From Bacteroidales bacterium (GTDB lineage: Bacteria > Bacteroidota > Bacteroidia > Bacteroidales > UBA932): a DNA stretch of 64,000 nt. The notes under the pieces are model-generated. The model was not told the origin of the DNA, did no database searches, and saw only the letters and a program-made list of their open reading frames with translations. The stretch is from NCBI GenBank assembly GCA_017550525.1, contig JAFZOU010000096.1:51443-115442 (forward strand). Direction: 5' to 3'. This document shows positions 2,720-52,088 of the stretch, one piece after another. Numbering within the stretch: the stretch's first letter is position 1; each line of letters begins with the position of its first letter. Both the position numbers and the translations under genes were made by a program.

Positions 2720-3276
2720 ACCGTAGCATCGTCATAATCCGCTATGCCACAGCGCTTGTGAAATATGCCCGTGAGAGCGGGCAGGGGGAACTTGTATGCT
2801 CTGAGGCTCAGACCCTTCTTGGTGCCATCCGCACCGTCCCGGAACTCAGGCGTATGGTTACAGCCGCCGATGACGTGGTGTCTCCCTTCGACAAGAAGAA
2901 ACTCCTCCAATCGGCCCTTGGAAACAGGCTCTCCACTGAGATGAGCCGCTTCCTCACCCTCCTTAACCAAAATGGGCGAATGGACCTTGTGGAGGATATC
3001 CTGAGGGATTTTGTAGAGTTCTACCACAGGAGCATCGGCATAAGGAAAGCCCGTCTTACTACTGCGCGTGAGCCGTCGGAACGCCTTCTTCAGCGCCTGA
3101 AGGCCCTTGTGAAGCAAAAGACCGGGGACGATGTAATGATTGAAGTCGAGGTGGACCCTGACCTTGTGGGAGGGTTTGTCTTTGACCTTGACGACTACCT
3201 TCTGGATGCCAGCGTACGGCGCCAGCTGGACCTTATCCGTGAACAGTTTATAGAAAAGAATAGAAGAATTATCTGA
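2716..3276 (+). CDS. atpH: F1Fo ATP synthase delta subunit
   Basis: 186-residue delta (OSCP) subunit joining the peripheral stalk to the top of F1. The N-terminal helical domain ([16 protein letters not shown]...) and the C-terminal segment ending in [17 protein letters not shown] are characteristic; the family signature near [20 protein letters not shown] is present. The start codon is GTG in the sequence GTGA overlapping the atpF stop; no better ATG exists upstream. The stop overlaps the atpA ATG by one base. Confidence 0.94.
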
Positions 3277-4886
3277 TGAGCGTATCTCTTAAACCAAGCG
3301 AAGTAAGCGACATCCTGCTAAGTCAGCTCAGGGATATGAAAAACGATCTCCAGTTTGAGGAGATCGGAAAGGCCCTTCAGGTGAGTGACGGCGTAGTTCG
3401 CATATATGGCCTTGATCACGCCGAGGCAGGGGAACTCCTTGACTGCGGCGGCGGAGTCATGGCCGTTGTGATGAACCTTGAGGCCGATAACGTGGGTGCC
3501 GTCCTTATGGGCCCCACGGACCACGTGAAGGAAGGAATGCTGGTGCGCCGTACAGGTCGCATCGCCTCCGTGGGGGTGAACGACAGCCTCCTTGGCAGGG
3601 TGATAGACCCTCTTGGCAACCCCCTGGACGGCCTCGGTGCCGTTGGCGGGGAGAAAATAGATATGCCTCTGGAGCGTAAGGCTCCGGGCGTCATCTACCG
3701 CCAGCCGGTTTCAGAGCCTCTCCAGACAGGCCTGAAGGCTATTGATGCAATGATTCCTATCGGCCGCGGTCAGCGTGAGCTCATCATTGGAGACCGCCAG
3801 ACCGGTAAGACAGCTATAGCCATAGATACCATCATCAATCAGAGAAGCGCCTATGAGGCCGGAGACCCCGTGTACTGCATCTATGTGGCCGTGGGCCAGA
3901 AGGGCTCCACGGTGGCTTCCATAGTCCAGACTCTGAGGGAACATAAGGCAATGGACTACACCATTGTGGTGGCTGCTACGGCTGCAGATCCCGCCGCACT
4001 GCAGTATTATGCTCCGTTTGCAGGAGCCGCAATTGGAGAGTACTTCCGTGACACCGGCCGCCACGCCCTTGTGGTGTTCGACGACCTCTCGAAGCAGGCC
4101 GTGGCATACCGTGAGGTGTCTCTGATTTTGAAACGTCCTTCCGGCCGTGAGGCATATCCCGGAGATATTTTCTACCTGCATTCACGCCTTCTTGAGCGCG
4201 CAGCCCGCATCATCGACCAGCAAGAGGTTGCGGCTCAGATGAACGATCTCCCTGAGGCCCTGAAGGACAAGGTGAAGGGCGGAGGATCCCTTACGGCTCT
4301 TCCCATAATCGAGACTCAGGCTGGTGATGTATCGGCCTATATCCCTACAAACGTGATTTCCATCACGGACGGTCAGATTTACCTGGAGCAGGCGCTATTC
4401 AACCAGGGCGTACGTCCCGCAATCAATGTGGGTATATCCGTGTCCCGTGTAGGTGGCAGCGCCCAGGTGAAGTCCATGAAGAAGGTGGCAGGTACACTTA
4501 AGATAGACCAGGCCCAGTGGGCGGAGCTTGAGGCCTTCTCAAAGTTCTCGTCCGATGTTGATAAAGTAACTGAACTTGCTCTGGATAAGGGTAGGAAGAA
4601 CAATCAGCTCCTTATCCAGCCCCAGTACAGCCCCATGCCGGTAGGGGAGCAGGTGGCGGTGCTCTACTGCGGCACGCACGGCCTTATGAGGGACATTCCA
4701 GTCTCCTCTGTCCGCGCCTTCCAGGACGCCTTCCTTGACCGCCTCCGCGCCACGCACTCTTCTGATGTCCTTGCCCCTCTTGGAGAAGGCAAACTTACCC
4801 CTGAGATTGAAAAGATCCTCTCAGACACGGCCGAATCAGTAATTATGGGCCTGGCAGATAAGTGGTTGAGTATAAGTGAATTATGA
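3276..4886 (+). CDS. atpA: F1Fo ATP synthase alpha subunit
   Basis: 536-residue regulatory nucleotide-binding F1 subunit. Walker A is GDRQTGKT (residues 172-179), the beta-barrel domain precedes it, and the arginine-finger region appears as [14 protein letters not shown]. Full length for the family, with no internal anomaly. Translation is probably coupled to atpH through the TGATG overlap. A 73-bp gap without obvious structure separates it from atpG, the only real spacer in this part of the operon. Confidence 0.97.
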
Positions 4887-4959: not shown

Positions 4960-5883
4960 ATGCCAACGTTAAAGGAAATAAAGGGCCGGATAGGGTCTGT
5001 GAAGAGTACGCTGAAGATAACATCGGCGATGAAGCTGGTGTCATCGGCCAAACTGCGTAAGGCACAGAATGCAATTGCGGCTATGAGACCTTATGAGGAG
5101 GCGCTGCAAAAGATGCTGGCGATGGCTCAGGGTGCAGGTAACGTGCCCGGAAATGTCCCGTTACCTTCAAAAATGGCCGATTTTGCGGGTAACGTGCTGG
5201 AAAAAGTCCCGTCACCTGCAGTGATTGTGGCAATAGCGTCCAACTCTTCCCTTTGCGGCGGGTTCAATGCCAATGTGATTGCCAAGGTTAGGTCCGTTCG
5301 CCGTTCAGGTGACGTGGTGTATTCCATCGGCCGTAAGATGGCCGATGCAATGGCCCGTGACGGGTTCCGTTCCCCTAAGGATTACTCATCCCTTTCAGAG
5401 CATCCGGCATACGCAGAGGCTGCGGCGCTTGTGGAGAAGCTCTCAGAAGACTTCTATGATGGTAGGATAAGCGGCGTGACGCTTGTGTACACGCACTTTG
5501 TGTCCACTTCCAGGCAGGTTCCGGTGGCTGAGCGCCTGCTGCCGGTGGAGACCCCCGATCGAGTCGGGGGTGACGAGGAGGCCGTCATACCCGGCCCATC
5601 CTCAGTCATACCCGCCCCCGACCGGGTATCCGAGGCCATCCTGGAGCCATCGGCCCGGGAACTTCTGGAGGCCCTGCTTCCCCGTACACTGAAACTGAAA
5701 CTTTACGCGGCGCTCCTTGACAGCGCGGCGGCGGAACATGCGGCCCGCACGGTTGCCATGCAAACGGCAACTGACAATGCAGAGGACCTGCTTTCCGAAC
5801 TTACTCTGCAGTACAACAAGGGCCGTCAGCAGAAGATTACGTCGGAAATCCTGGACCTCGCTGGAGGCCAGGCCGCCGAATAA
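4960..5883 (+). CDS. atpG: F1Fo ATP synthase gamma subunit with two in-frame repeat-derived segments
   Basis: 307-residue central shaft of F1. The N-terminal helix (KEIKGRIGSVKSTLKITSAM) and the C-terminal helix (ASEHAARTVAMQTATDNAEDLLSEL-type region, here AAAEHAARTVAMQTATDNAE) are canonical, as is SNSSLCGGFNANVI. Two stretches are not: residues about 58-87 (GNVPGNVPLP...GNVLEKVPSP) and about 197-225 (TPDRVGGDEEAVIPGPSSVI...), both encoded by inverted-repeat DNA. They fall in surface loops that vary in length among gamma subunits, so the protein is probably functional. The ATG follows a 73-bp gap after atpA. Confidence 0.95.
   Translation: MPTLKEIKGRIGSVKSTLKITSAMKLVSSAKLRKAQNAIAAMRPYEEALQKMLAMAQGAGNVPGNVPLPSKMADFAGNVLEKVPSPAVIVAIASNSSLCGGFNANVIAKVRSVRRSGDVVYSIGRKMADAMARDGFRSPKDYSSLSEHPAYAEAAALVEKLSEDFYDGRISGVTLVYTHFVSTSRQVPVAERLLPVETPDRVGGDEEAVIPGPSSVIPAPDRVSEAILEPSARELLEALLPRTLKLKLYAALLDSAAAEHAARTVAMQTATDNAEDLLSELTLQYNKGRQQKITSEILDLAGGQAAE
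5133..5220. repeat. Nested hairpin pair inside atpG (first insertion)
   Basis: Two related hairpin units, 5137-5165 and 5187-5216, each beginning GGTAACGTGC and ending GTCCCGT(T/C)ACC; the first closes as GGTAACG/CGTTACC. Outer arms TGCAGGT (5133-5139) and ACCTGCA (5214-5220) enclose both. The whole stretch is read in frame within the gamma subunit, upstream of the conserved CGGFN region. Confidence 0.6.
5548..5634. repeat. Two opposed GTCAT...ATCTC palindromic units inside atpG (second insertion)
   Basis: Unit 1 (5548-5574, reverse orientation) is a hairpin with arms ACCCCCGA/TCGGGGGT around a 5-nt loop. Unit 2 (5605-5634) has arms ATACCCG/CGGGTAT. An extra half unit GTCATACCCG lies at 5584-5593. 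The ends match the unit seen at 701-728 and 31045-31101. All are in frame without stop codons. Confidence 0.72.
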
Positions 5884-5903
5884 GACTAGACTAACCACAT
5901 AAA

Positions 5904-6836
5904 ATGAAAAACATTCTCGAAATTCTGAAAACCTGGAAATTCTGGAAGGAACTGTTCATAATGACTGCCGGTATGACCATAGCGGCAGCGGCTGTGTACT
6001 ACTTCCTTATGCCTTCAAAACTTGTTGTAGGTTCCATCACGGGTCTTTCCATCGTGATTGGAAAACTGCTGAATATGGCGGGTATCGGCATCAGGGTGTC
6101 GCAGGTGATTGTTATAATCAATGCTATCCTTCTGGTGCTGGCCTGGATTCTCATCGGTAAGGAATTCGGCGCCAAGACCGTTTACACGGCACTTATCCTT
6201 GGTCCGCTGGTGGATTTCTGGGAGAAGGTGCTGCCCATAGAACGCCTTCTGGAGCCGGGGCAGATGTCCCTTATGAACGACCCCTGGTTCGACCTCCTTT
6301 GTTTTGTGCTTATCCTCAGTGCTTCCCAGACCATCCTGTTTCATATAAATGCATCAACGGGAGGGCTGGATATCCTGGCAAAGATTGTGAACAAGTACAT
6401 GCACGTTGATATCGGCACATCAGTTTCCGTTGCCGGAGCCATCATCTGCTGCACGGCGTTCGCCATCAACCCGTTCAGGCTGGTTGTAATCGGCCTTATC
6501 GGAACCTGGATCAACGGCATTGCGCTGGATTATTTCACCGCGGGCCTTAACCGCAGAAAGAGGGTGTGCATCATTTCCTCTCAGTACGAGCGTCTGCGCA
6601 AGTACATCATCGAGGACCTTGAGCGAGGCTGCTCACTGTACAACGTAACCGGCGGCTATAATGGCCATCAGAACGTTGAGATCCAGGCCCTCCTGACCCA
6701 GGATGAGTTTGCCCATCTTATGGATTATATGAAGAAGAACGACATCCACGGATTCATCACCGCCGGCAATGTGAGCGAAATTTACGGTGACTGGCACAAA
6801 AAAACTCGTAAAAAGAAGAGTTTGGCACAGAATTAG
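5904..6836 (+). CDS. YitT family membrane protein with C-terminal DUF2179 domain
   Basis: 310 residues. Five or so hydrophobic helices occupy residues 15-215, with the YitT-type motif LMPSKLVVGSITGLSIVIGK near the N-terminus and the STGGLDILAKIVNKY stretch in the middle. The last about 85 residues (RKRVCIISSQYERLRKYIIE...) form the soluble DUF2179 domain found behind YitT membrane regions. Function of the family is not settled; transport has been suggested. It follows atpG by 20 bp on the same strand but is not a known ATP synthase component. Two hairpins downstream probably end transcription. Confidence 0.88.
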   Translation: MKNILEILKTWKFWKELFIMTAGMTIAAAAVYYFLMPSKLVVGSITGLSIVIGKLLNMAGIGIRVSQVIVIINAILLVLAWILIGKEFGAKTVYTALILGPLVDFWEKVLPIERLLEPGQMSLMNDPWFDLLCFVLILSASQTILFHINASTGGLDILAKIVNKYMHVDIGTSVSVAGAIICCTAFAINPFRLVVIGLIGTWINGIALDYFTAGLNRRKRVCIISSQYERLRKYIIEDLERGCSLYNVTGGYNGHQNVEIQALLTQDEFAHLMDYMKKNDIHGFITAGNVSEIYGDWHKKTRKKKSLAQN

Positions 6837-6843
6837 ATATAAG

Positions 6844-6920
6844 AGGTATCAGACATAAATATTGATACCTTACCATATACCCGCCGCCAATTGTGAAATT
6901 CGCGTGCGGGTTTCTTTTTT
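6844..6920 (+). terminator. Double hairpin ending the atp-yitT transcript
   Basis: First stem AGGTATCA (6844-6851) with TGATACCT (6863-6870). A second hairpin, CCCGC (6880-6884) with GCGGG (6906-6910), is followed at once by TTTCTTTTTT (6911-6920), a classical intrinsic terminator layout. Confidence 0.65.
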
Positions 6921-6947: not shown

Positions 6948-7065
6948 TGCCGATGCGGTGGGGCTTAACTCGCTTACTGTCAGTCGCTTACACAATCGTT
7001 TGGGATTACTGGTAATCCCAAAGAACTCCACAACTAACTGTGTATCAGTCGTTTGGCTTCCACTG
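6948..7065. repeat. Nested-palindrome element A1 (left array)
   Basis: About 118 bp. Outer imperfect arms GTGGGGCTTAAC (6957-6968) and GTTTGGCTTCCAC (7051-7063) enclose a small dyad ACTGTCAGT and a near-perfect central palindrome with arms TTTGGGATTAC (6999-7009) and GTAATCCCAAA (7012-7022), then CACA/TGTG. The first 20 bases match element A5 at 33498 almost exactly. Together with what follows up to 7330 it fills the 529-bp gap before the MFS gene. Confidence 0.65.
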
Positions 7066-7077
7066 GTTCGGGGGGCT

Positions 7078-7163
7078 GGACCTGGTCCACCACATTCTTG
7101 GACCTGGTCCACCGCCTTGCAACCTGACTGCTGTCCTGCTGACCGCATTCTTGGACCTGGTCC
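7078..7163. repeat. Three copies of GGACCTGGTCC (left array)
   Basis: The 11-bp dyad GGACC-T-GGTCC occurs at 7078-7088, 7100-7110 and 7153-7163, each followed by ACC. The same three-copy group appears in reverse complement at 9553-9607 on the far side of the MFS/HAD genes. Confidence 0.75.
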
Positions 7164-7196
7164 ACCGCCTCGTGACCTGGCGGCAGTCCTGCCTCA

Positions 7197-7330
7197 GCCG
7201 TGTTGACAGCTAGAACGCCTAGAATGAGGTTTTTGTGTCAACACGGCAAAGAAATCGGTCCAAAACGCCAAAAACGTTGCCGTGTGGGCACCGGAATCGG
7301 CCACAGGAGCGTTTTACGTGTCAACACGGC
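7197..7330. repeat. GCCGTGTTGACA/TGTCAACACGGC hairpin array (left copy)
   Basis: Arm GCCGTGTTGACA (7197-7208) pairs perfectly with TGTCAACACGGC (7236-7247). A half arm GCCGTGT (7279-7285) is followed by a spacer starting GGAATCGGCCACAGGAGC (7293) and a third arm TGTCAACACGGC (7319-7330). The stretch 7153-7330 is about 93% identical by hand alignment to the reverse complement of 9386-9563. It could act as a terminator for the MFS gene or as a recombination substrate. Confidence 0.75.
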
Positions 7331-7365
7331 AAAGGGCGAACATCACGGAAACCGCCCTTCCAAAC

Positions 7366-8718
7366 CTATTTCCGCAGGTATTTCCACCCTATGACCGGCA
7401 GGGTGAAGGCCAGGAGGCATGCGGCTATCCAGAAGATGGATACCGGTGCAAAGTTGTAGGCCCCAGCAACGGTGTTCCCCTCAATTAGGAAGCCGCTCAC
7501 AACGCTCTGAAGGCCGGCAGCTGCATAACTGGAGATTCCCACTATACCAAGCGCCGCGCCGGTAGCTTTGCGGGGCACGAAGTCCAAAGCCATGAGCCCG
7601 GCCACAATGCAGAAAACCACGCTGAAGGCAAAGCTGAACAGGGCCACAAAGGCCATGTTGCCCCAGAAACCGCCTCCAAGGAACAGGAACGCAGCCAGTG
7701 AGCACACGGCAAGGATGCCAGAAACCACCACCGGCCTTACACGGTTGCCTCTGAGAAGGACATCCGATATCCACCCTGCGGCAAGGTTACCCGCCACGCC
7801 AAAAATCTCGGCCAGGCCAATCACCTGCGTAGCTCTCTCAAGGGAGAAGCCCTTCTGCTTCTGGAGGAACAGCACGCCCCAGTCGGAGACCGCGTGCTGA
7901 GTCACGTACAAAAATGCCGTGGAGATGGCTATGACCCAGATTCCGGGATGTTTGAACACCCATTTCTGGAGTTCCCGCGTTGGTTTTTTGTCAAGGGGCC
8001 GGGTTTCTTCTCCGGAGAGTTCCTGGACGGAAGGGAGGCCCTGGCTTTCGGGGGTATCGGCAATGAAAATGAGGGACACGGCTAGGCCGATAATCCCCGC
8101 CACCGCGGCAGCCATAAATCCCCACTGCCAACCCGCTGCGGCAACGATAAAGCCCGTCATCATCATTGAGAGGGCCTTTCCAAGCTGAGGGGTGGAGGAG
8201 AAGATGCTGTAGTATCGGCCCCTCATGGAGAGGGGAAACCAGCGGGAGAGGCTGATTGTTCCGGGCGGGGAGCCCATAGACTGCATCCAGCCGTTGATGC
8301 CCCAGAGGAGGGTGAAGGTAACCAACATCACAATGGAGCCAAAGCCCAGAGGGCCTTGCAGGAGGCCCATCAGCCCAAGAATCAGGTTGACTGCGGCCGA
8401 TATCCCTATGCCCACCGCCATGAACCGGCGGATGTTGCAATAATCGGCAATGAAGCCGTTGAGGAATTTCCCCACCGCGTAGACAAAGTAGAATGCGGAT
8501 CCTATGATGCCAAGCTGCCCCGCCGAAAGCACGCCTCCGTCAATGAGCGGCTGCTTCACCACGCCAAGGGTCATCCGGCATACATAATATAATGTATAGG
8601 CCACGGTGACGCCCCAGAATGTGCGGCTCCTCAGGCGCCTGTATGTGGCGTCCACCTCACCTGACGGCACTTTTGCTGCCGACGGCTTGCTTATGCGGAA
8701 GTGACTATAGAGGGACAT
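7366..8718 (-). CDS. MFS transporter, organophosphate:phosphate antiporter type (UhpC/GlpT-like)
   Basis: 450 residues with about twelve hydrophobic helices. The N-terminal region WGVTVAYTLYYVCRMTLGVVK and the stretch WGINGWMQSMGSPPGTISLSRWF are characteristic of the OPA family (GlpT, UhpT, UhpC), which exchange phosphorylated sugars or glycerol-3-phosphate for phosphate or sense them. The exact substrate cannot be read from sequence. It starts 2 bp after the HAD phosphatase gene, so both form one transcript; transporter plus phosphatase suggests uptake and dephosphorylation of a sugar phosphate. The two genes stand alone between mirrored repeat arrays. Confidence 0.85.
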   Translation of the reverse strand: MSLYSHFRISKPSAAKVPSGEVDATYRRLRSRTFWGVTVAYTLYYVCRMTLGVVKQPLIDGGVLSAGQLGIIGSAFYFVYAVGKFLNGFIADYCNIRRFMAVGIGISAAVNLILGLMGLLQGPLGFGSIVMLVTFTLLWGINGWMQSMGSPPGTISLSRWFPLSMRGRYYSIFSSTPQLGKALSMMMTGFIVAAAGWQWGFMAAAVAGIIGLAVSLIFIADTPESQGLPSVQELSGEETRPLDKKPTRELQKWVFKHPGIWVIAISTAFLYVTQHAVSDWGVLFLQKQKGFSLERATQVIGLAEIFGVAGNLAAGWISDVLLRGNRVRPVVVSGILAVCSLAAFLFLGGGFWGNMAFVALFSFAFSVVFCIVAGLMALDFVPRKATGAALGIVGISSYAAAGLQSVVSGFLIEGNTVAGAYNFAPVSIFWIAACLLAFTLPVIGWKYLRK

Positions 8719-8720
8719 TT

Positions 8721-9335
8721 CTAGCAGTCTGAGAGTAGAAGGCCAAGATCCGTTCCGGGATTGTAGAGGCGGGCATCCAGGCCTACCGCCCTGGCGCCGT
8801 CTACGTTGGCCTTGTTGTCATCTATGAAAAGGATCTCCTGCGGAGGCAGACCAATCCTCTGGATCACGTACCGGTAGAACTCCGGGGCCGGTTTCATAAG
8901 CTTAAGGTCTGACGATATGAACTGACCCTTGAATGTTTCATCGGGGTCCAGCCCGTTGTCCTTCAGTATCCTGAGGCAGTGCCTCATGGAGATTGGATTG
9001 TTGTTGGAAAGAAGGTAGAGAGGGTACTTCCCCTTAAGGTCTTTCACTGCCTGGACAGTACGGGGATCCATCTTTCTGTCCAGAAGTTCCCCCATGGCGT
9101 ACTCCACATCCTGAGGCTTTGTTCCGGGGCGGGACTCTGCAATGACAAGATCCTTGAAGTGCTGCTCGCTGAGGCGGCCACCCTCCAGCTCCCCGTAAAT
9201 ACCCTTCTGGTGATAAGGGTCCAGGAGCTCAGTGATTCTTTCAAAGCCAAGGGTGGAGCGGAATGCTTCTATGCATCTGCTCATATTGAGGCCGATAAGT
9301 ACCCCACCTATGTCAAATACTATTGCTTTAGGCAT
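8721..9335 (-). CDS. HAD-superfamily phosphatase (subfamily IA-like)
   Basis: 204 residues. Motif I is VFDIGGVLIGL near the N-terminus: the nucleophile Asp is present but the usual second Asp (general acid, D+2) is Gly, as in the glucose-1-phosphatase-like and some other HAD groups. Motif II is YLLSNNNPIS, and motif IV is LFIDDNKANVDGARAVGL with the metal-binding acid pair. The cap region lies between. Likely hydrolyses a small phosphorylated metabolite. A TACCTTTG promoter lies 11 bp upstream, and the MFS gene follows 2 bp downstream. Confidence 0.8.
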   Translation of the reverse strand: MPKAIVFDIGGVLIGLNMSRCIEAFRSTLGFERITELLDPYHQKGIYGELEGGRLSEQHFKDLVIAESRPGTKPQDVEYAMGELLDRKMDPRTVQAVKDLKGKYPLYLLSNNNPISMRHCLRILKDNGLDPDETFKGQFISSDLKLMKPAPEFYRYVIQRIGLPPQEILFIDDNKANVDGARAVGLDARLYNPGTDLGLLLSDC

Positions 9336-9346
9336 AATTCAGTGCA

Positions 9347-9354
9347 CAAAGGTA
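9347..9354 (-). promoter_or_regulatory. Bacteroidota -7 box for HAD-MFS pair
   Basis: TACCTTTG on the minus strand (TAnnTTTG consensus) ends 11 bp before the HAD ATG. It lies inside the segment bracketed by the inverted arrays, so it would move with the genes if the segment inverted. Confidence 0.65.
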
Positions 9355-9385
9355 GTCATTTGCCACGGCATTCGCAAAAGTCCCG

Positions 9386-9519
9386 GCCATGTTGACACGT
9401 AAAACGCTCCTGTGTCCGATTCCGGTGCCCACACGGCAACGTTTTTGGCGTTTTGGGGTAATTTCCTTGCCGTGTTGACACAAAAACCCCATTCTGAGCG
9501 TTTTGGCTGTCAACACGGC
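9386..9519. repeat. GCCGTGTTGACA/TGTCAACACGGC hairpin array (right copy, inverted)
   Basis: Reverse complement of the array at 7197-7330: arms at 9386-9397 (one mismatch), 9431-9437 (half arm), 9469-9480 and 9508-9519. It is upstream of the HAD gene. Left and right copies with their flanking GGACC-dyad groups form a long inverted repeat about 2.1 kb apart. Confidence 0.75.
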
Positions 9520-9552
9520 TGAGGCAGGACTGCCGCCAGGTTACGAGGCGGT

Positions 9553-9607
9553 GGACCAGGTCCAAGAATGCGGTGGACCAGGTCCAGGCAGGTGGTGGAC
9601 TAGGTCC
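9553..9607. repeat. Three copies of GGACC(A/T)GGTCC (right array, inverted)
   Basis: Dyads at 9553-9563, 9575-9585 and 9597-9607 (the last GGACTAGGTCC). Mirror image of the group at 7078-7163. Confidence 0.72.
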
Positions 9608-9620
9608 AAGGGTAGAATCG

Positions 9621-9726
9621 GTGGAGGCTAAGTGGTTGATATACAGTGAATTGCAAGAGTGTCTACCAGAATTATTTCTGGTAGAAGATGCCGTAAGTTG
9701 CTGTAAATGAGATGGTTGGCTTCCAC
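9621..9726. repeat. Nested-palindrome element A2 (right array, inverted)
   Basis: Outer arms GTGGAGGCTAAG (from 9621) and GGTTGGCTTCCAC (to 9726) enclose a central palindrome TCTACCAGAA (9662-9671) / TTCTGGTAGA (9676-9685). The outer arms match element A1, but the central palindrome is a different sequence, closest to that of A3 at 17681. Confidence 0.65.
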
Positions 9727-9729
9727 TGA

Positions 9730-9771
9730 CAGGGGAGAACCGTCAGGGGAGAACCGCCAGGGGAGAACCGC
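9730..9771. repeat. Tandem repeat, 3 x 14 bp
   Basis: CAGGGGAGAACCG(T/C) three times (9730, 9744, 9758). The core GGGGAGAACC also occurs once, in reverse, at 17630-17640 beside element A3. The 496-bp gap 9336-9831 holds this plus the inverted arrays and no gene. Confidence 0.7.
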
Positions 9772-9831: not shown

Positions 9832-10779
9832 CTATTTCCCGGTGGGATGGGCGAAGTGGGTGGGCTGGGCCTTGGGCTTGGAGGCGGGTTCCGGGTGAAC
9901 GGCCATGGCGGGCTGCTTCTTCACGTAGGCGTACACCAGGAAGCCTATACCAAGGAGTACGAACGGGATGGAGAGGAGCTGGCCCATGTTGAGGGCCATG
10001 TTGGCCTCAAAGTCCACCTGGTCGTTTTTCACAAACTCAATGAGGAAGCGGCTGCCGAAGCACACAATCAGGAATATGCCGATAAACGTGCCCCGGTACA
10101 GTTTCTCCAGCCTGTTACGGTACAGCCAGATAAGGAGTAAGCCAAGAAGGAGATATGTGAGGGCCTCATAGAGCTGCGTGGGATGGCAGGGTACGGTTTC
10201 TCCGTTTCTCTCAAATACAAAGCCCCAGGGAAGGGTGGTGGGGCCGCCGTAGATCTCTGAGTTAAAGAGGTTGCCAAGGCGGATGAAGCACGCTGCAAAG
10301 GCCACAGGGATGGCAATGTGGTCAATGACCCAAACGAAGTCGAAGCCGTTTGCCGGGCCGTACTTACGGGCATACCAGATGATACCAAGGATGATGGCGA
10401 TGGTGCCGCCATGGCTGGCAAGGCCGCCTTTCCAGGGCATGAAGATTTCCCAGAAGGCCTGCCAATTGGTCATGCCGCGGGCTGCCACCTGGGGGGAAAC
10501 GGTACCTCCGAACATCTGGAAGAAAGGTGCCAGATAGTAATCCGGCTCATAGAACAGGCAGTGGCCTAGGCGTGCGCCCACTATGGTGCATATGAGAAGC
10601 ATGTATAGCATGGGGTCCAGGAGGGCCTCGCTTATCTTTTCACGATTAAAGAAGCTCTTCATGATGAACCAGCCCAGGATGAAGCCGCTCACAAAAAGCA
10701 GTGAATACCATCTGAGTTCAAAGCCGCCGAGGTGAAGGATGGCGGGGTTCACATTCCAATGTACAATGAGTGTTTCCAT
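9832..10779 (-). CDS. lgt: Prolipoprotein diacylglyceryl transferase
   Basis: 315-residue integral membrane enzyme that transfers diacylglyceryl from phosphatidylglycerol to the lipobox cysteine of prolipoproteins, the first step of lipoprotein maturation. Seven hydrophobic helices are visible, with the catalytic-region stretch GGLASHGGTIAIILG and the signature FAACFIRLGNLFNSEIYG. The C-terminal tail is charged and proline-rich. An ATG 18 bp upstream is possible, but the TATATTTG promoter overlaps it, so METLIVHW is the better start and the message would be nearly leaderless. It serves the many lipoproteins of the window (SusD, adaptor, GH proteins). Confidence 0.95.
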   Translation of the reverse strand: METLIVHWNVNPAILHLGGFELRWYSLLFVSGFILGWFIMKSFFNREKISEALLDPMLYMLLICTIVGARLGHCLFYEPDYYLAPFFQMFGGTVSPQVAARGMTNWQAFWEIFMPWKGGLASHGGTIAIILGIIWYARKYGPANGFDFVWVIDHIAIPVAFAACFIRLGNLFNSEIYGGPTTLPWGFVFERNGETVPCHPTQLYEALTYLLLGLLLIWLYRNRLEKLYRGTFIGIFLIVCFGSRFLIEFVKNDQVDFEANMALNMGQLLSIPFVLLGIGFLVYAYVKKQPAMAVHPEPASKPKAQPTHFAHPTGK

Positions 10780-10783
10780 ACTG

Positions 10784-10791
10784 CAAATATA
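10784..10791 (-). promoter_or_regulatory. -7 box for lgt
   Basis: TATATTTG on the minus strand, four bases before the lgt ATG (TTTGCAGTATG). The same TTTGCAGTATG junction is found before the DUF3825 gene at 61129, implying transcripts with almost no 5' leader. Confidence 0.7.
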
Positions 10792-10801
10792 ATACATTTT
10801 T

Positions 10802-45569: not shown

Positions 45570-46622
45570 ATGTTACCTTCAGAAATTGTCAATTTCTTTG
45601 CTATCAAAGGCAATGTAAAGGAGATCAAACCCCTTGGAAACGGTCTTATCAATGACACCCTTCTGGTGAAGACCGACGGCCCTGACGACTACGTGCTTCA
45701 GAAAATCAACAATGCCATTTTCCAGGACGTTGAACTGCTCCAGCACAATATAGACTGCGCAACGGCTCATATCCGGAAGAAGGGTGCCATGAGCCTTACC
45801 TTCATCCCCTGCAAGGAAACGGGCAAAACCTACTGGACAGACGGCAAAGAGTACTGGCGCGTATCCATCTTCATCAAGAACGCCTTCACCTTTGAGACCG
45901 TGAATCCGGAGTATTCCTATTACGCCGGAAAGGCTTTCGGTGCATTTGAGGCTATGCTTGCCGATATCCCCGATACCCTTGGCGAGACCATCCCGGATTT
46001 CCACAACATGGAGCTCCGTGCCCGCCAGCTCCATGAGGCTGTAAATGCCGATAAAGCCGGCCGTATGGCAGAACCTGAGGTAAAGGCCATCCTTGAGGAC
46101 CTTCTCCCCTATGAGGAGGAAATGTGCAAGGCAGAGCGCCTTTACCGTGAAGGGAAACTCCCCAAGAGAATCTGCCACTGCGACACAAAGGTTAACAATA
46201 TGCTCTTTGACAAGGACGGCAACATCATCTGCGTCATAGACCTTGATACCCTTATGCCCAGTTTTGTATTCTCTGATTTCGGGGATTTCCTCCGTACTGC
46301 CGCAAATACCGTGGCCGAGGACAGTCCTGAGGTGGATAAGGTAGATTTCAAGATGGACATCTTTGAGGCTTTTGCAAAAGGCTATCTTGAAAGCGCAAAG
46401 GTGTTCCTCACCCCCATTGAGATAGAGAACCTGCCGTATGCGGCATGCCTGTTCCCTTACATGCAGGCAGTCCGTTTCTTTGCCGATTACATTAACGGAG
46501 ACACCTACTACAAGATCAAATACCCGGAGCACAACCTTGTGCGCACCCGCAACCAGGTTGCCCTGTTCCATGCCGCAATGGCAAAGGTTCCAGAGATGAA
46601 AGCATTTATTGAAAAGATATGA
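45570..46622 (+). CDS. Sugar kinase of the aminoglycoside-phosphotransferase fold (N-acetylhexosamine 1-kinase-like)
   Basis: 350 residues, cytoplasmic. The N-lobe has PLGNGLINDTLLVK and VLQKINNAIF; the catalytic loop is CHCDTKVNNMLFD (H-x-D-x4-N) and the metal-binding motif IDLDTLMP. This pattern is that of NahK, which phosphorylates GlcNAc/GalNAc at C1 in the GNB/LNB pathway. It sits between exported glycosidases, so it would phosphorylate the monosaccharide they release after import. The substrate is inferred from context, not seen. Confidence 0.8.
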   Translation: MLPSEIVNFFAIKGNVKEIKPLGNGLINDTLLVKTDGPDDYVLQKINNAIFQDVELLQHNIDCATAHIRKKGAMSLTFIPCKETGKTYWTDGKEYWRVSIFIKNAFTFETVNPEYSYYAGKAFGAFEAMLADIPDTLGETIPDFHNMELRARQLHEAVNADKAGRMAEPEVKAILEDLLPYEEEMCKAERLYREGKLPKRICHCDTKVNNMLFDKDGNIICVIDLDTLMPSFVFSDFGDFLRTAANTVAEDSPEVDKVDFKMDIFEAFAKGYLESAKVFLTPIEIENLPYAACLFPYMQAVRFFADYINGDTYYKIKYPEHNLVRTRNQVALFHAAMAKVPEMKAFIEKI

Positions 46623-47992
46623 AACTAAGAGCCATTATCCTTACGGCCGCTTTCCTTGCGGCCGTTTCCTGCAGCCAGTCTGCAAAGATTATCAAGACCC
46701 CCGTTCCTCCCCGTCCTGCAGGTCAGGAAACCATGCTCCAGTTTGCCGCTGAGCCCATTGCGGATGTAGGTATCGGCGTTGTGGGACTTGGAGATCGCGG
46801 TTCAGGCGCCGTGTATCGTCTTTCCTATGTTCCCGGTAGTCACGTGGCAGCCATCTGCGATGTAGAACCGGACAGGGCGGAAAAGAACCTCAAGGTACTT
46901 GAAAGCCGCGGTATGACCGCAAAGGTATATGCCGGTGACGAGGAAGTTTACAAGCAGCTCTGCGAGGACCCTGACGTAGACTTGGTGTACATCTGCACCG
47001 ACTGGGTACATCACGTTCCCGTGGCTCTCTATGCTATGGAGCACGGCAAGCACGTTGCTCTGGAAGTACCTTCGGCAGAAACCCTCCAGGCCTGCTGGGA
47101 CCTTGTGAACACCTCCGAGCGCACCCGCAAGCACTGCATGATCCTTGAGAACTGCTGCTACGATTTCTTTGAACTTACCGCCCTCACAATGGCTCAGCAG
47201 GGTGTATTTGGTGACATTATCCACGCGGAAGGCTCCTACCACCACAACCTTGATCCCTACTGGGACAACTACTGGCATAACTGGCGCCTTGAGTTCAACC
47301 AGAAGTACAGGGGAGACCTCTATCCCACACATGGATTCGGCCCTGTATGCCAGGTTCTTGACATCCACCGCGGAGACCGCCTTACCACCCTTGTAGCTAT
47401 GGATACGGATCCTTTCAATGGTCCCAAACTTGTTGAGGCCCGCACAGGAAAGCCCTGCACTGATTTCCAGAATGGTGACGAGACTATGACCATGATCCGC
47501 ACCGCAAAGGGAAAGAGCATCCTCATTGAACATGACGTAATGACTCCCCGTCCCTATGACCGTATGTACCAGCTTGTGGGCACGGACGGCTATGCCGCCA
47601 AGTACCCTGTGGGCCAGGTATGCCTTAGGACTGAGACCACAGGAGAAGTGGACTACGAGGACCTTGAGTTTGAGAAAGTCTATGAAGGAGATGAACTTGA
47701 AGCCCTTATGGCTCAGTACCGTAACCCCATCCTTACCCCTGAGCTTGAGGCTCTGGCCAAGGAGGTCGGCGGTCATGGAGGCATGGATTTCATCATGGAC
47801 TACCGCCTTGTGTACTGCCTCAACAACGGTCTGCCTCTTGATATGGACGTGTATGACCTTGCCGAATGGTGCTGCGTAACGGAACTTTCCAGAATCTCAA
47901 TCGAGAACGGCTGCGTTCCCGTGGAGATTCCGGACTTCACACGCGGAGACTGGGACAAGATCCAGGGCTTCAGTTACGCTTTTGCAAACTAG
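46619..47992 (+). CDS. GH109-family lipoprotein (alpha-N-acetylgalactosaminidase family)
   Basis: 457 residues. Lipobox AAVSCSQS near residue 18. The NAD-binding motif IGVVGLGDRGSGAV follows; then ALEVPSAETLQACWDLV, ENCCYDFFELTAL, EGSYHHNLDPYWDNYWHNW, LYPTHGFGPVCQVLDIHRGD and VYCLNNGLPLDMDVYDLAEW, all family hallmarks including the His of THGFGP. Expected to remove terminal alpha-GalNAc with catalytic NAD. It overlaps the kinase gene by 4 bp. Its stop overlaps the stop of the convergent gene. Confidence 0.9.
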   Translation: MKLRAIILTAAFLAAVSCSQSAKIIKTPVPPRPAGQETMLQFAAEPIADVGIGVVGLGDRGSGAVYRLSYVPGSHVAAICDVEPDRAEKNLKVLESRGMTAKVYAGDEEVYKQLCEDPDVDLVYICTDWVHHVPVALYAMEHGKHVALEVPSAETLQACWDLVNTSERTRKHCMILENCCYDFFELTALTMAQQGVFGDIIHAEGSYHHNLDPYWDNYWHNWRLEFNQKYRGDLYPTHGFGPVCQVLDIHRGDRLTTLVAMDTDPFNGPKLVEARTGKPCTDFQNGDETMTMIRTAKGKSILIEHDVMTPRPYDRMYQLVGTDGYAAKYPVGQVCLRTETTGEVDYEDLEFEKVYEGDELEALMAQYRNPILTPELEALAKEVGGHGGMDFIMDYRLVYCLNNGLPLDMDVYDLAEWCCVTELSRISIENGCVPVEIPDFTRGDWDKIQGFSYAFAN

Positions 47993-48966
47993 CGGGGGCT
48001 TATTGACAACAGTAGTTGAAGCTGCTGTCCTACCGCCGAAGAAAAATCTTCATTAGAAGCGGGGATGGTATCCTGAAGGGTTCCATCCTCGCATTGTATT
48101 GAGATGAAGGCAACCCCTATGTCGGCAATCCTGTGCATGTCTTCCAGAGAAGGGTAGACGTAGAAGAAATTGTAGTCATCCCTTGTCTGGATGAGATTAA
48201 TCTCGGAGCCGTCACGGAGGATGAACTTGACGGGAGCGTCATATGGTATGTGATGCTTTGAATTGGTGCCGATAACAACGGCAAGATCAAGGTCTTCCTT
48301 GCCTGAGTTTTTGTAATACAGGTGGGAAAGGAGCACGTTGTAGTCCATGCTGGCGCCGCGGGCGACGATGGGATTGGCGGCCGTGAGGACACTGCCGGCA
48401 TTGTCTGTATGGGAGGCTATGGTGGCCGTCAGGTCAATTGTGGAATCGGCCGCCTTGAGGATAGCCTCGCAGTGGGACTTGAGGAGCTTTGCAAATTCAT
48501 CCTGGGCAAAGGTTGCCTGGACATAATCGTCCGGGTTCCAGCCGGTCACAAGGTCTATGGACTTTACTCCACGCACCATCTTTTCCATGTCTGAGGGCTC
48601 TGCGGCATACTTGAGGCGGTTTATGAAAGTTCCGTCCTCCAGACGCCTTTTAGTGGCTGAGTCCTGGCCGATCTGCTCCAGGCGCACGAACTTTCCGCCG
48701 GGCAGGGTGGCCGACATCTTCACGCCCTTGGGCGTAACCACGGCTTCTTTCTGGATGAGGTTTATGTACAGGAGGTACATGGATGAACCGTCAGGGAGAC
48801 CCACAAGTTCCACCCTTGCCTCCGAGGGGATATCGGCCAGTTTGATGGCTTCATAATCAGTGGAAATATGCGTAAAACCGCCGCTACGGTAGTTTGTGCG
48901 GACCTGCTGGGAGAAAGCGCTGCAGCAGATGGTGGCTGCAAGGATGCTTAAAAATGCTCTTTTCAT
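47989..48966 (-). CDS. Exported protein of unknown function
   Basis: 325 residues with a signal peptide (MKRAFLSILAATICCSAFSQ). Not recognised. The body has conserved-looking beta segments (ARVELVGLPDGSSMYLLYINLIQKEAVV, DAPVKFILRDGSEINLIQTRD) and a central region rich in helices (EFAKLLKSHCEAILKAADSTIDL). No cysteine motif or catalytic pattern. The start is set by the TATATTTG promoter, which lies just upstream and inside a longer frame. It converges on the GH109 gene, with both stop codons overlapping in CTAG. Confidence 0.7.
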   Translation of the reverse strand: MKRAFLSILAATICCSAFSQQVRTNYRSGGFTHISTDYEAIKLADIPSEARVELVGLPDGSSMYLLYINLIQKEAVVTPKGVKMSATLPGGKFVRLEQIGQDSATKRRLEDGTFINRLKYAAEPSDMEKMVRGVKSIDLVTGWNPDDYVQATFAQDEFAKLLKSHCEAILKAADSTIDLTATIASHTDNAGSVLTAANPIVARGASMDYNVLLSHLYYKNSGKEDLDLAVVIGTNSKHHIPYDAPVKFILRDGSEINLIQTRDDYNFFYVYPSLEDMHRIADIGVAFISIQCEDGTLQDTIPASNEDFSSAVGQQLQLLLSISPR

Positions 48967-48983
48967 AATGTCAAATTCCTCTG

Positions 48984-48991
48984 CAAATATA
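48984..48991 (-). promoter_or_regulatory. -7 box for the exported protein gene
   Basis: TATATTTG on the minus strand, 17 bp before the ATG at 48966. Confidence 0.65.
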
Positions 48992-49041
48992 CACTTTCTG
49001 TACCAAATAGCCACACGCTTTATTGATTCAATTAATTTTTG

Positions 49042-49049
49042 TAAATTTG
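49042..49049 (+). promoter_or_regulatory. -7 box for the export operon
   Basis: TAAATTTG, 39 bp before the OPX gene. Back to back with the promoter at 48984. Confidence 0.6.
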
Positions 49050-49088
49050 TAGGCTAAATATAGAATTAATTAAACTAAAGATATAGCT

Positions 49089-52088
49089 ATGAAGAGATTT
49101 ATCCTCTCATTACTGATGATTTCGGTGTCGGTCATTGCCATGGCGCAGTCCGCATCAATGCTATCAATGGCCCGTGCAGAACTTGACAAGCGCGGTCTCT
49201 CGGAAGCCGAGGTCCGTACACGCCTCATGCAAGAGGGAATAGACCCAGAAGCAATTCCCCCGTCAGACTATCCCAAGTATCAGGGCCGCGTGATGGCAAT
49301 CCTCAATGAGATGCAGGCAGAGAAGGCTGCAGAGAATCAGTCTACGGGTGTTGCCGGAGGCACCGTTGCAGTTGCCGATGTCAATCCTACCGTAATTGAA
49401 GTGGGCCCTGTATCGGCCGATGACGTCCCTCAGACAACCATAGGCGAAGCCGCCGCAGAAAGCGCCCTTGAGAAGGCCCTTGAGGAGGCACATGTTTCTC
49501 CTACCGCCGGTAATGACATCTATGGCCATTCCATATTCACCGGCAAGTCCCTGGACGTTTTCCGCACAACTGACGGCGCCCAGGCTCCGGACACATACAT
49601 CCTTGGTGAAGGGGATGAGGTGCATATTTCCATCTTCGGTTCTTCCCAGACGGAAATCCACCAGAGGATATCCCCGGACGGATCCATCCAGCCTGCCGGT
49701 TCCACCAAGATCTTCCTCAAGGGAATGACTCTTGCCCAGGCCCGCGCAGCAATCCGCAGTAAGCTGTCCCACCACTATTCCTTCCGTCCGGACCAGATTG
49801 CAGTTACCATCACCACGGCCCGTACCATCACCGTGAGCATTTTCGGTGAGGTTGGCGTTCAGGGAGGTTTCACCCTCAGCGCCCTCAACACTGCGTTCAA
49901 CGCCCTGGCAGCAGCCGGTGGTCCCACGGCGCAGGGCTCAATCCGTAATATCCAGCTCTCACGTGCCGGTAAAACCAGCCGCCTGGACCTTTACCAGTAC
50001 ATGACAAACCCCACCTCCGGTCTTCCCTATGACCTCCAGAACAACGATGTAATCTTTGTCCCTATCTCCCAGAAGATAGTAAGCATTGAAGGTGGTGTTA
50101 AGCGCCCCATGAGGTATGAGATGGTTGAGGGAGAAGACCTTGCCAAACTCATCGAGTATGCCGGCGGCCTTACGTATGACGTATATCCTGAGTTTGTCCA
50201 GATTGAGCGCCACATGGACGGTGAGATAAGCTATCAGGAATACAAGCTCAAGTCCGTTATGGACGGGAACCAGAAAGTTTCCCTTGAGCCCGGTGACATT
50301 GTGAGGATTAAATCGGCTGCACGTCCGCTTGAGAACTTTGTGACAATCAAAGGTGACGTCTACTATGGCGGCAACTTTGACTATGATGAGAACAAGAGCC
50401 TCAAGACCCTCATTGAGAAGGCAGAGCTCAAATACACTGCCCGCAAGGATTATGTGTTTGTAGAGCGCACAAGCCCTGATGAGACCGTTGAGGTTCTCAC
50501 CGTTCCTTTCCCCGGAGAGAACGGTAACCCTGACTTCAAGCTGGAGCAGCGGGACGTAGTGACCGTGCTGGCCCTTGACAGCTATCTTGAGAAATGGACT
50601 GTAGGCGTAAGCGGGGAAGTACGCAACCCCTTTGAACGCACATTCGGCCTCAATGACATCATGACCCTTGGCCAGGCAGTGGAACTTGCCGGCGGTCCCA
50701 GTCACAGCGCCCGCACAGACTTCGTGTACGTAGAGCGTACCCGTCCGGACCAGACCGTTGAGATTCTCACTCTCCCGTTCCCTGAAAAGGACTCCGAAAG
50801 CTACAACTTCCCCCTGCAGGCAAAGGACAAGATCCGCGTCCTCAGCCTCACCTCATTCCGTGACGTGGACCAGATCTCCGTCCAGGGTCAGGTACGCGCA
50901 CCGTTCACGCGCAGCTTCAGTCTCAATGACCGCATGACCGTGAACCAGGCCATTGAATACGCAAACGGTCTCAAGCCCAGCGTGTTCCCCGTAGCTTATA
51001 TCACCCGTACAGATATCACCAACCCTGAAAAGAAGGAGTACATCCGCGTAGACCTTAACAAGGACGGAGAAACTCTCCTCCAGCCCGGTGATGTCCTGAA
51101 CGTATATGACAACACCACTTTCACCAATATCGGAGAAGTCCGTGTGAGCGGAGCCGTAAAGAATTCCGTGGGAGTTACTTATGATCCTTCTGTAACTATG
51201 CATGACCTTATCATGATGGCCGGCGGTTTTGCCGTGGGTGCTGCTTATGACAAGGTTCAGGTGTTCCGCGTGAATATCTCCAAGAGCGAGGAAGTCCAGT
51301 ATGATCTCATCACCCTTGCCGTGGATGAGGATTATAACCCCATTGACAAGAACTTCGTCCTCCAGCCTTATGACCATGTTGTGGTGCGTATGACTCCCAA
51401 CTTCGCCACAGACCGCGTAGTTGAGATCAATGGCCGCGTAAGGTATCCCGGCGTGTATGTGCTCAATGATTCCCGTACCCAGCTTTCTGAAATCATCAAG
51501 ATGGCCGGCGGTCTTCTTGACGACGCAGACCCTTATGCCAGCATCTTCCGCACGTACCGCAACCGCGGCCGTATCGGCATAGATCTCAAGAAGGCAAAGA
51601 ATCATCCCAAGAACATGAAGCATGACCCTATCCTCATGGCTGGCGATGTCCTTAACATCAACCGTCAGGAGAATACCGTCATCATCCGTCCTACCGGAAC
51701 CCTCATGAACCAGTATGTGGCGGAGGACTTTGTGAGCGACCAGAAGAATATAGTGTTCAAGGGACGTCACAGTGCGGCCTGGTACATCAAGAACTACGCC
51801 GGAGGCTTTGACAAGTACGCGGACAGAAAGAGCGTTACAGTCACTCTTCCCAACAACCAGTCCAAGGGTACCAAGCAGTTCATCTTCCGTGCTACACCTA
51901 TCGTAGAGCCCGGAAGCGTCATCACCATCAAGATGAACCAGGACAAGATAGACAACCGCAACCGCAGGATGGAAGAACCTAAGACCAGGGTGGACTTTGA
52001 AACCGTGGCGGCCAAGACACTGTCTTCAGTAACGTCAATCATTTCAGTCATCATCCTGGGTAGGAACCTCCTCAGGACATCAAACTAG
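49089..52088 (+). CDS. Polysaccharide export outer membrane protein (OPX, multiple SLBB domains)
   Basis: 999 residues. Signal peptide (MKRFILSLLMISVSVIAMAQ), an N-terminal Poly_export domain (YILGEGDEVHISIFGSSQTEI..., residues about 165-250) and then about six SLBB repeats (VSIFGEVGVQGGFTL, VSIEGGVKRPMRYEM, VSGEVRNPFERTF, VQGQVRAPFTRSF, VSGAVKNSVGVTY, INGRVRYPGVYVL). A hydrophobic segment lies near the C-terminus (SVTSIISVIILGRNLL). It forms the export channel for capsule or exopolysaccharide together with the Wzz-type protein that follows 7 bp later. Larger than E. coli Wza (about 380), as is common in Bacteroidota. Confidence 0.93.
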   Translation: MKRFILSLLMISVSVIAMAQSASMLSMARAELDKRGLSEAEVRTRLMQEGIDPEAIPPSDYPKYQGRVMAILNEMQAEKAAENQSTGVAGGTVAVADVNPTVIEVGPVSADDVPQTTIGEAAAESALEKALEEAHVSPTAGNDIYGHSIFTGKSLDVFRTTDGAQAPDTYILGEGDEVHISIFGSSQTEIHQRISPDGSIQPAGSTKIFLKGMTLAQARAAIRSKLSHHYSFRPDQIAVTITTARTITVSIFGEVGVQGGFTLSALNTAFNALAAAGGPTAQGSIRNIQLSRAGKTSRLDLYQYMTNPTSGLPYDLQNNDVIFVPISQKIVSIEGGVKRPMRYEMVEGEDLAKLIEYAGGLTYDVYPEFVQIERHMDGEISYQEYKLKSVMDGNQKVSLEPGDIVRIKSAARPLENFVTIKGDVYYGGNFDYDENKSLKTLIEKAELKYTARKDYVFVERTSPDETVEVLTVPFPGENGNPDFKLEQRDVVTVLALDSYLEKWTVGVSGEVRNPFERTFGLNDIMTLGQAVELAGGPSHSARTDFVYVERTRPDQTVEILTLPFPEKDSESYNFPLQAKDKIRVLSLTSFRDVDQISVQGQVRAPFTRSFSLNDRMTVNQAIEYANGLKPSVFPVAYITRTDITNPEKKEYIRVDLNKDGETLLQPGDVLNVYDNTTFTNIGEVRVSGAVKNSVGVTYDPSVTMHDLIMMAGGFAVGAAYDKVQVFRVNISKSEEVQYDLITLAVDEDYNPIDKNFVLQPYDHVVVRMTPNFATDRVVEINGRVRYPGVYVLNDSRTQLSEIIKMAGGLLDDADPYASIFRTYRNRGRIGIDLKKAKNHPKNMKHDPILMAGDVLNINRQENTVIIRPTGTLMNQYVAEDFVSDQKNIVFKGRHSAAWYIKNYAGGFDKYADRKSVTVTLPNNQSKGTKQFIFRATPIVEPGSVITIKMNQDKIDNRNRRMEEPKTRVDFETVAAKTLSSVTSIISVIILGRNLLRTSN

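Follow-up and report, generated by a model that had tools for sequence, protein, structure and literature searches.

Palindromic arrays around a HAD-MFS gene pair

The window analysed here, a stretch of 64,000 nt from a rumen-type Bacteroidales bacterium with a genome of 2.38 Mb, contains a transporter and a hydrolase gene enclosed by two arrays of palindromic elements, and the question addressed is what these arrays are and how they relate to the orientation of the genes between them. Pfam profile searches gave the gene order at the locus as YitT, HAD-MFS block, Lgt. The left outer gene encodes a YitT-family membrane protein (5904..6836, + strand; PF02588 at 127 bits, also PF10035) and is followed by a hairpin and T run that resemble a terminator, recognised by eye at 6880-6920. 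The block consists of an MFS transporter (7366..8718, - strand; open reading frame (ORF) of 450 aa, MFS_1 at 136 bits) and a HAD-type hydrolase (8721..9335, - strand; ORF of 204 aa, Hydrolase PF00702 at 71 bits). The right outer gene encodes a prolipoprotein diacylglyceryl transferase, Lgt (9832..10797, - strand; LGT at 220 bits). An earlier note on this DNA had given the block its own promoter, and a promoter-like site (9347..9378, - strand; TTTG at 9375-9378, 20 nt, TACCTTTG at 9347-9354) is indeed readable just inside the right arm. It fits the Bacteroidetes-type promoter motif, and the stretch that carries it is also present upstream of HAD in the relatives L021-L026.

From left to right, the arrays run through palindrome A, the GGACC dyads and the hairpin unit up to the genes, beyond which the three element types return in reverse order. 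Within them, a left arm (7142..7330, + strand) and a right arm (9386..9574, - strand) form an inverted pair that is 93% complementary over 189 nt, with 2055 nt between the arms. A similarity search of the left against the right arm gave E = 2.9e-71, which excludes a chance match, and the left arm as query found 13 further matching places elsewhere in the genome. The 178-bp arms that had been aligned by hand at about 93% came out at 92.7% identity on recomputation. The hairpin unit, called H below, is a 134-bp element with an outer 11-bp stem surrounding an inner stem according to sequence and fold analysis (left copy 7197..7330, + strand; right copy 9386..9519, - strand). In four of 15 aligned copies (12 from the own genome, that is, the contigs of the source genome, and three from L026 and L027), two pairs of the outer stem change on both sides together. 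The three GGACC dyads on the left are all exact (7077-7089, 7099-7111 and 7152-7164; span 7077..7164). On the right, where the earlier note had also counted three, two are exact (9552-9564 and 9574-9586) and one is degenerate (9596-9608; span 9552..9608). The genome contains 35 occurrences of the dyad pattern TGGACCNGGTCCA, five of them at this locus, versus two of a reversed control pattern.

Palindrome A, an imperfect palindrome of 106 bp, has a left copy at 6958..7063 (core GGGATTACTGGTAATCCC) and a right copy at 9621..9726 (core CTACCAGAATTATTTCTGGTAG). Both end in GTGG...CCAC, but their cores differ (GGGATTAC...GTAATCCC on the left, CTACCAGAA...TTCTGGTAG on the right) and where they match, they do so as direct repeats (7038-7065 versus 9701-9728, 79%). 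The outer palindromes are therefore not mirror copies of each other, and the mirror arrangement, which had been proposed for all three repeat types, is confined to the dyads and the hairpin unit. Three direct copies with 14-bp spacing (CAGGGGAGAACCG) adjoin the right palindrome A at 9725-9770, and similar copies are found in L022, L024 and L025. At curated thresholds, Rfam returned one tRNA only for the window, and the arrays there match no curated RNA family.

Orientation of the block among relatives

Relatives were taken from the best 80 of 92 loci that encode a relative of the window MFS protein; all genomes compared are metagenome or uncultured-bacterium assemblies and belong to different species. 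Among the nine closest genomes (the window and L021-L028), HAD-MFS is opposite to atp-YitT in six (window, L021, L023, L025, L026 and L027) and collinear with it in three (L022, L024 and L028). L022 and L024 carry the block reversed between the same outer genes as the window, and the suggestion that the segment could invert is thus borne out by evidence between species. In the window, L022 and L024 alike, the GGGATTAC-core palindrome adjoins YitT and the CTACCAGAA-core palindrome adjoins Lgt (the latter also in L025), and the stretch upstream of HAD travels with HAD. Since the outer palindromes stay in place and the promoter-like site of HAD turns with the block, the crossover of the L022/L024 reversal falls inside the shared dyad/H arm.

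A five-gene tree places L022 and L024 as sisters nested among the genomes with the opposite orientation (support 75, 82 and 83 at successive nodes), and in a tree of the flanking genes they are still nested (support 37-56). On this topology, the history of the HAD-MFS block requires at minimum one inversion and one reversal. At 37 loci, the orientation of MFS (29 collinear, eight opposite) changes at least four times. The orientation of YitT versus the atp genes (21 versus 14, two without; 37 loci among L021-L065) changes at least eight times, versus a mean of 11.1 (7-14) with shuffled labels, and is nearly as scattered as chance would make it.

The array content of these loci is uneven. L023 has a full-length H on one side and a partial copy on the other, L027 a full-length H on one side only, and L021 a partial copy on one side. 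L028, which is in the collinear state, has no H at the block and a single dyad. This genome and more distant loci keep the atp-YitT-HAD-MFS neighbourhood, and the genes adjoin atp in arm-less relatives as well instead of being present or absent as a whole unit at different sites. The genes are therefore older at this site than the arrays, and the idea of the earlier note that they could have moved as a unit is not supported. As a separate matter, the arms at this locus gave no clear sign of concerted evolution within genomes, since within-genome identity (82.9-95.7%) was not consistently above that between genomes.

A short-read assembler might set a segment between such arms in either orientation, and the relatives named here being metagenome assemblies or uncultured-bacterium records would suit such an artefact. 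The arms, however, are imperfect: they share exact matches of no more than 41 bp in the window, and the corresponding maximum is 27-53 bp across five relatives examined. Orientation is the same in the sister genomes L022 and L024, and L028 shows the collinear state without arms. With imperfect arms and concordant sister genomes, an assembly artefact seems extremely unlikely as the source of the two orientations.

The arms are also long and well matched, and a reversal did occur on the tree, as would be expected of a reversible switch within populations, in which the block flips often and its expression differs by orientation. The promoter-like site of HAD-MFS is nevertheless part of the block and turns with it, which makes a promoter switch unlikely, a terminator-like hairpin follows YitT, and the agreement of L022 and L024 does not suggest frequent flipping. 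Such a switch is therefore quite unlikely. With the genes keeping their promoter-like site, inversion would mainly alter the neighbours and the strand of HAD-MFS, and we regard it as probably an occasional, evolutionary event.

Inversions at other loci

Comparison of the own contig C111 with contigs of seven relatives revealed further small gene-scale inversions. Four relatives cover segment 43030-44349 (1.3 kb); three of them (G184, G288 and G382) have it inverted and G221 has it collinear, and palindrome-A inverted repeats of 122-140 bp lie at its flanks in G184 and G288. Segment 23267-24746, which includes a decayed RAYT gene, is inverted in G288, the sole relative covering it. For a third segment (46613-50554, 3.9 kb; inverted in G184 and G288), no arms were found in the own genome, G184 or G288. 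At C111:23362-24043, the decayed RAYT gene has an SSB-like ORF (identified by eye) as its neighbour, and GGACC dyads and AACGTCTGC-core palindromes enclose the two (L104, L143).

Five further segments of the own genome were picked because elements enclose them, and for four of them the inverted state is found in one or more relatives. The C9 segment is inverted in G125, one of five comparable relatives (G221 is split across two contigs); the C29 segment in four of six (G184, G180, G288 and G382); the C49 segment in two of the four fetched (G264 and G288), with a larger rearrangement in G382, also among the four; and the RAYT-bearing C80 segment in two of seven (G184 and G288). The arms are H at the HAD-MFS locus and C9, and palindrome A at C80 and C49. 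Two element types serving as arms, together with exact matches of 27-53 bp in six genomes, suggest that homologous recombination or template switching fits better than one specific recombinase.

The flanks of C9 differ between genomes. The own genome has an H pair and G264 an H on the right with a collapsed remnant on the left; a collapsed left remnant is also present in G288, G221 and G184, and G180 and G125 have unmatched sides. In G184 the same two genes are enclosed by a matched inverted pair of another hairpin family, GTCGCAGGT/ACCTGCGAC. From these differences it follows that the element families at these loci are dynamic. The loops of the GTCGCAGGT/ACCTGCGAC array resemble those of H (L194, on G184:C16, at ~3110-3420 and ~5700-6000; L197, on G180:C10, at ~5640-5830). 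At the 3' end of the left gene of the C9 block (L195, L198, L194 and L193), the collapsed H remnant looks as if sequence had been deleted between the ends of H.

That the matched family at C9 depends on the species, an H pair in one and a GTCGCAGGT pair in another, could also imply that the arms are a result of inversion, with staggered breaks or fork switching duplicating the end sequence in inverted form. Against such an order of events, the sides of C9 are unmatched in G264, G180 and G125, and elements such as H in L010, L014 and L017 are found with no inverted partner close by. It is thus unlikely that inversion produced the arms.

A scan of 24 contig pieces from eight genomes (1.72 Mb) yielded 2658 scorable runs of one to four genes, with arms defined as inverted repeats of 40 bp or more on the two sides. 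Twelve of the 17 runs with arms were inverted in at least one relative, versus 32 of 2641 without. When both intergenic regions were at least 100 bp, the counts were 11 of 15 versus 13 of 153 (Fisher 4.6e-8, a value that overstates independence because runs overlap and loci recur across genomes). In our own tally, nine distinct loci have arms and five of these, four of them besides the HAD-MFS locus, are inverted. Some of the scanned contigs had been picked for element pairs, not for inversion, and C29 and C49 lie outside the scan. An earlier, looser scan with a 30-bp cut-off, now superseded, had given 6 of 6 with arms versus 38 of 326 without.

We propose that dispersed palindromic elements provide the inverted homology for recurrent gene-scale inversion, and put the probability of this reading at about 0.75. 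The arrays would be stacked copies of dispersed palindromes (the RAYT-associated palindrome A, the GGACC dyads and the 134-bp double-hairpin H), and opposite-facing related copies around one to three genes would supply inverted homology. Homologous recombination or template switching between such copies may then turn the enclosed genes around in place.

Several observations weigh against this proposal, in addition to the overlap of runs that inflates the significance of the scan. Four of the nine distinct armed loci are not inverted, two of them having arms of only 41 and 48 bp, and the 32 inverted runs lack detectable arms in the genome at hand; some of these are the same loci in an arm-less genome and others are distinct. 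The own genome has no arms at C111 43030-44349, the C69 segment is collinear in six relatives (G125 aligned only partly), and G125, which has the inverted state of C9, carries H on one side only. At the HAD-MFS locus, full-length H occurs on both sides in four of the nine genomes (window, L024, L025 and L026), and in L022, although its block is reversed, just one side carries it, with GGACC dyads on both sides. The palindrome beside Lgt carries the GGGATTAC core in L021 and L023, which means that the outer marker varies within the clade, and the grouping of L022 and L024 is modestly supported, at 75 on the five-gene and 48 on the flank-gene tree. Lastly, all comparisons are between species, and no event within a strain was seen.

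Element families and related systems

With its REPIN/TIR-like structure and its link to RAYT (Y1) transposases, palindrome A is of a known kind, and its copies are scattered through the own genome. That genome has four matches to the Y1 transposase family (PF01797), three of which are above the cut-off and the fourth of which is a decayed gene. The RAYT gene on C80 is flanked by an inverted pair of GGGATTAC-core palindromes. Its relatives in G184, G288 and G125 are 84%, 83% and 79% identical, respectively. RAYT genes of the C80 type lie beside palindromes with the GGGATTAC core in the own genome, G264 and G180 and with the CTACCAGAA core in G184 and G288, and the latter is also the core of the right palindrome A of the window; the G125 copy has a GGGAT-type core and G382 has none. 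REP elements have a GTAG/GTGG tetranucleotide at the hairpin foot; palindrome A ends in GTGG...CCAC, about 40 nt from its core hairpin.

Among 27 RAYT genes inspected, eight have palindromes with the same core on both sides and ten on one side; the other nine have no palindrome at all or just an unrelated hairpin at a distance of 300-460 nt. These numbers are our own tally for stems of at least 9 bp and loops up to 16, a filter blind to H. H was therefore searched for by blastn, which placed no unit within 1 kb of any of the 27 genes. GGACC dyads occur within 1 kb of seven of them and about 250 nt before the gene in four (L143, L263, L264 and L268). As these four genes have AAGAGGGTGCG or AAACGTCT cores, the dyads could be associated with a single RAYT group. 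Some dyads lie inside mechanically predicted ORFs (L147 2699-3275, L148 3512-3691, L149 2616 and 4556, and L151 3187-3221), so not all copies are intergenic. H was also considered as a genus-wide element, which was rejected because it was present in only three of 61 genomes searched, the own genome included.

The association with RAYT genes raises the possibility that the inversions are the direct work of these transposases, acting by cleavage of the palindromes. Copies of palindrome A are found at the flanks of RAYT genes, the RAYT-bearing C80 segment is itself inverted in G184 and G288, and REP DNA in single-stranded form is cleaved and recombined in vitro by the E. coli enzyme (PMC8266576). 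Palindrome A nevertheless stays with the outer genes in the window, L022 and L024, where the crossover lies in the dyad/H arm, and H is not a neighbour of the inspected RAYT genes. Direct action of RAYT transposases is thus very unlikely.

Like the REPINs or BIMEs that form REPtrons or TIRtrons with RAYT (TnpA_REP) genes (PMC3116915, PMC3733652), palindrome A is a dispersed imperfect palindrome that flanks RAYT genes, and together with these genes it resembles the Bacteroidetes TnpA_Y1 subclass 2.6 with its atypical flanking structures (PMC6006769). The present arrays differ from REP/RAYT systems in that H has no RAYT link and the dyads a partial one. The main texts of PMC3116915 and PMC3733652 contain no word starting with 'inversion', a word for which PMC6006769 was not searched. 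The invertons and phase-variable promoters of Bacteroidales (PMC8748976, PMC10939037, PMC11892184) likewise consist of DNA between inverted repeats that occurs in either orientation. Here, in contrast, whole genes with their own promoter-like site are enclosed, the arms are imperfect, near 190 bp and of several families, and the evidence is between species; moreover, the promoter-like site moves with HAD, whereas in an inverton the promoter inverts relative to the gene that it drives. Inversions at inverted repeats of 12-18 bp were confirmed experimentally in another bacterium (PMC3411829), and inversion at inverted homology is the feature shared with the present loci. The difference is that the homology here comes from dispersed palindromic families and that the same blocks flip repeatedly in evolution. 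Among the open-licence matches listed, titles and abstract starts do not describe gene inversion bounded by palindrome arrays in this group. The unusual part is the combination of paired, mirrored elements around small gene blocks with recurrent inversion between species.

A stronger version would be a genome-wide gene-flipping system, in which palindromic families, partly seeded by RAYT, mark many blocks of one to three genes as invertible and flip them so often that populations mix orientations and neighbourhoods. We consider this unlikely. Still, the orientation and neighbours of genes are commonly assumed to change slowly, and dispersed palindromes appear to be ready-made inverted homology for small blocks. 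The proposal offers a concrete, testable cause for the repeated inversion of gene-sized segments in a large Bacteroidales genus, and under it REP-like elements would matter for evolution in a way that goes beyond the effects commonly considered.

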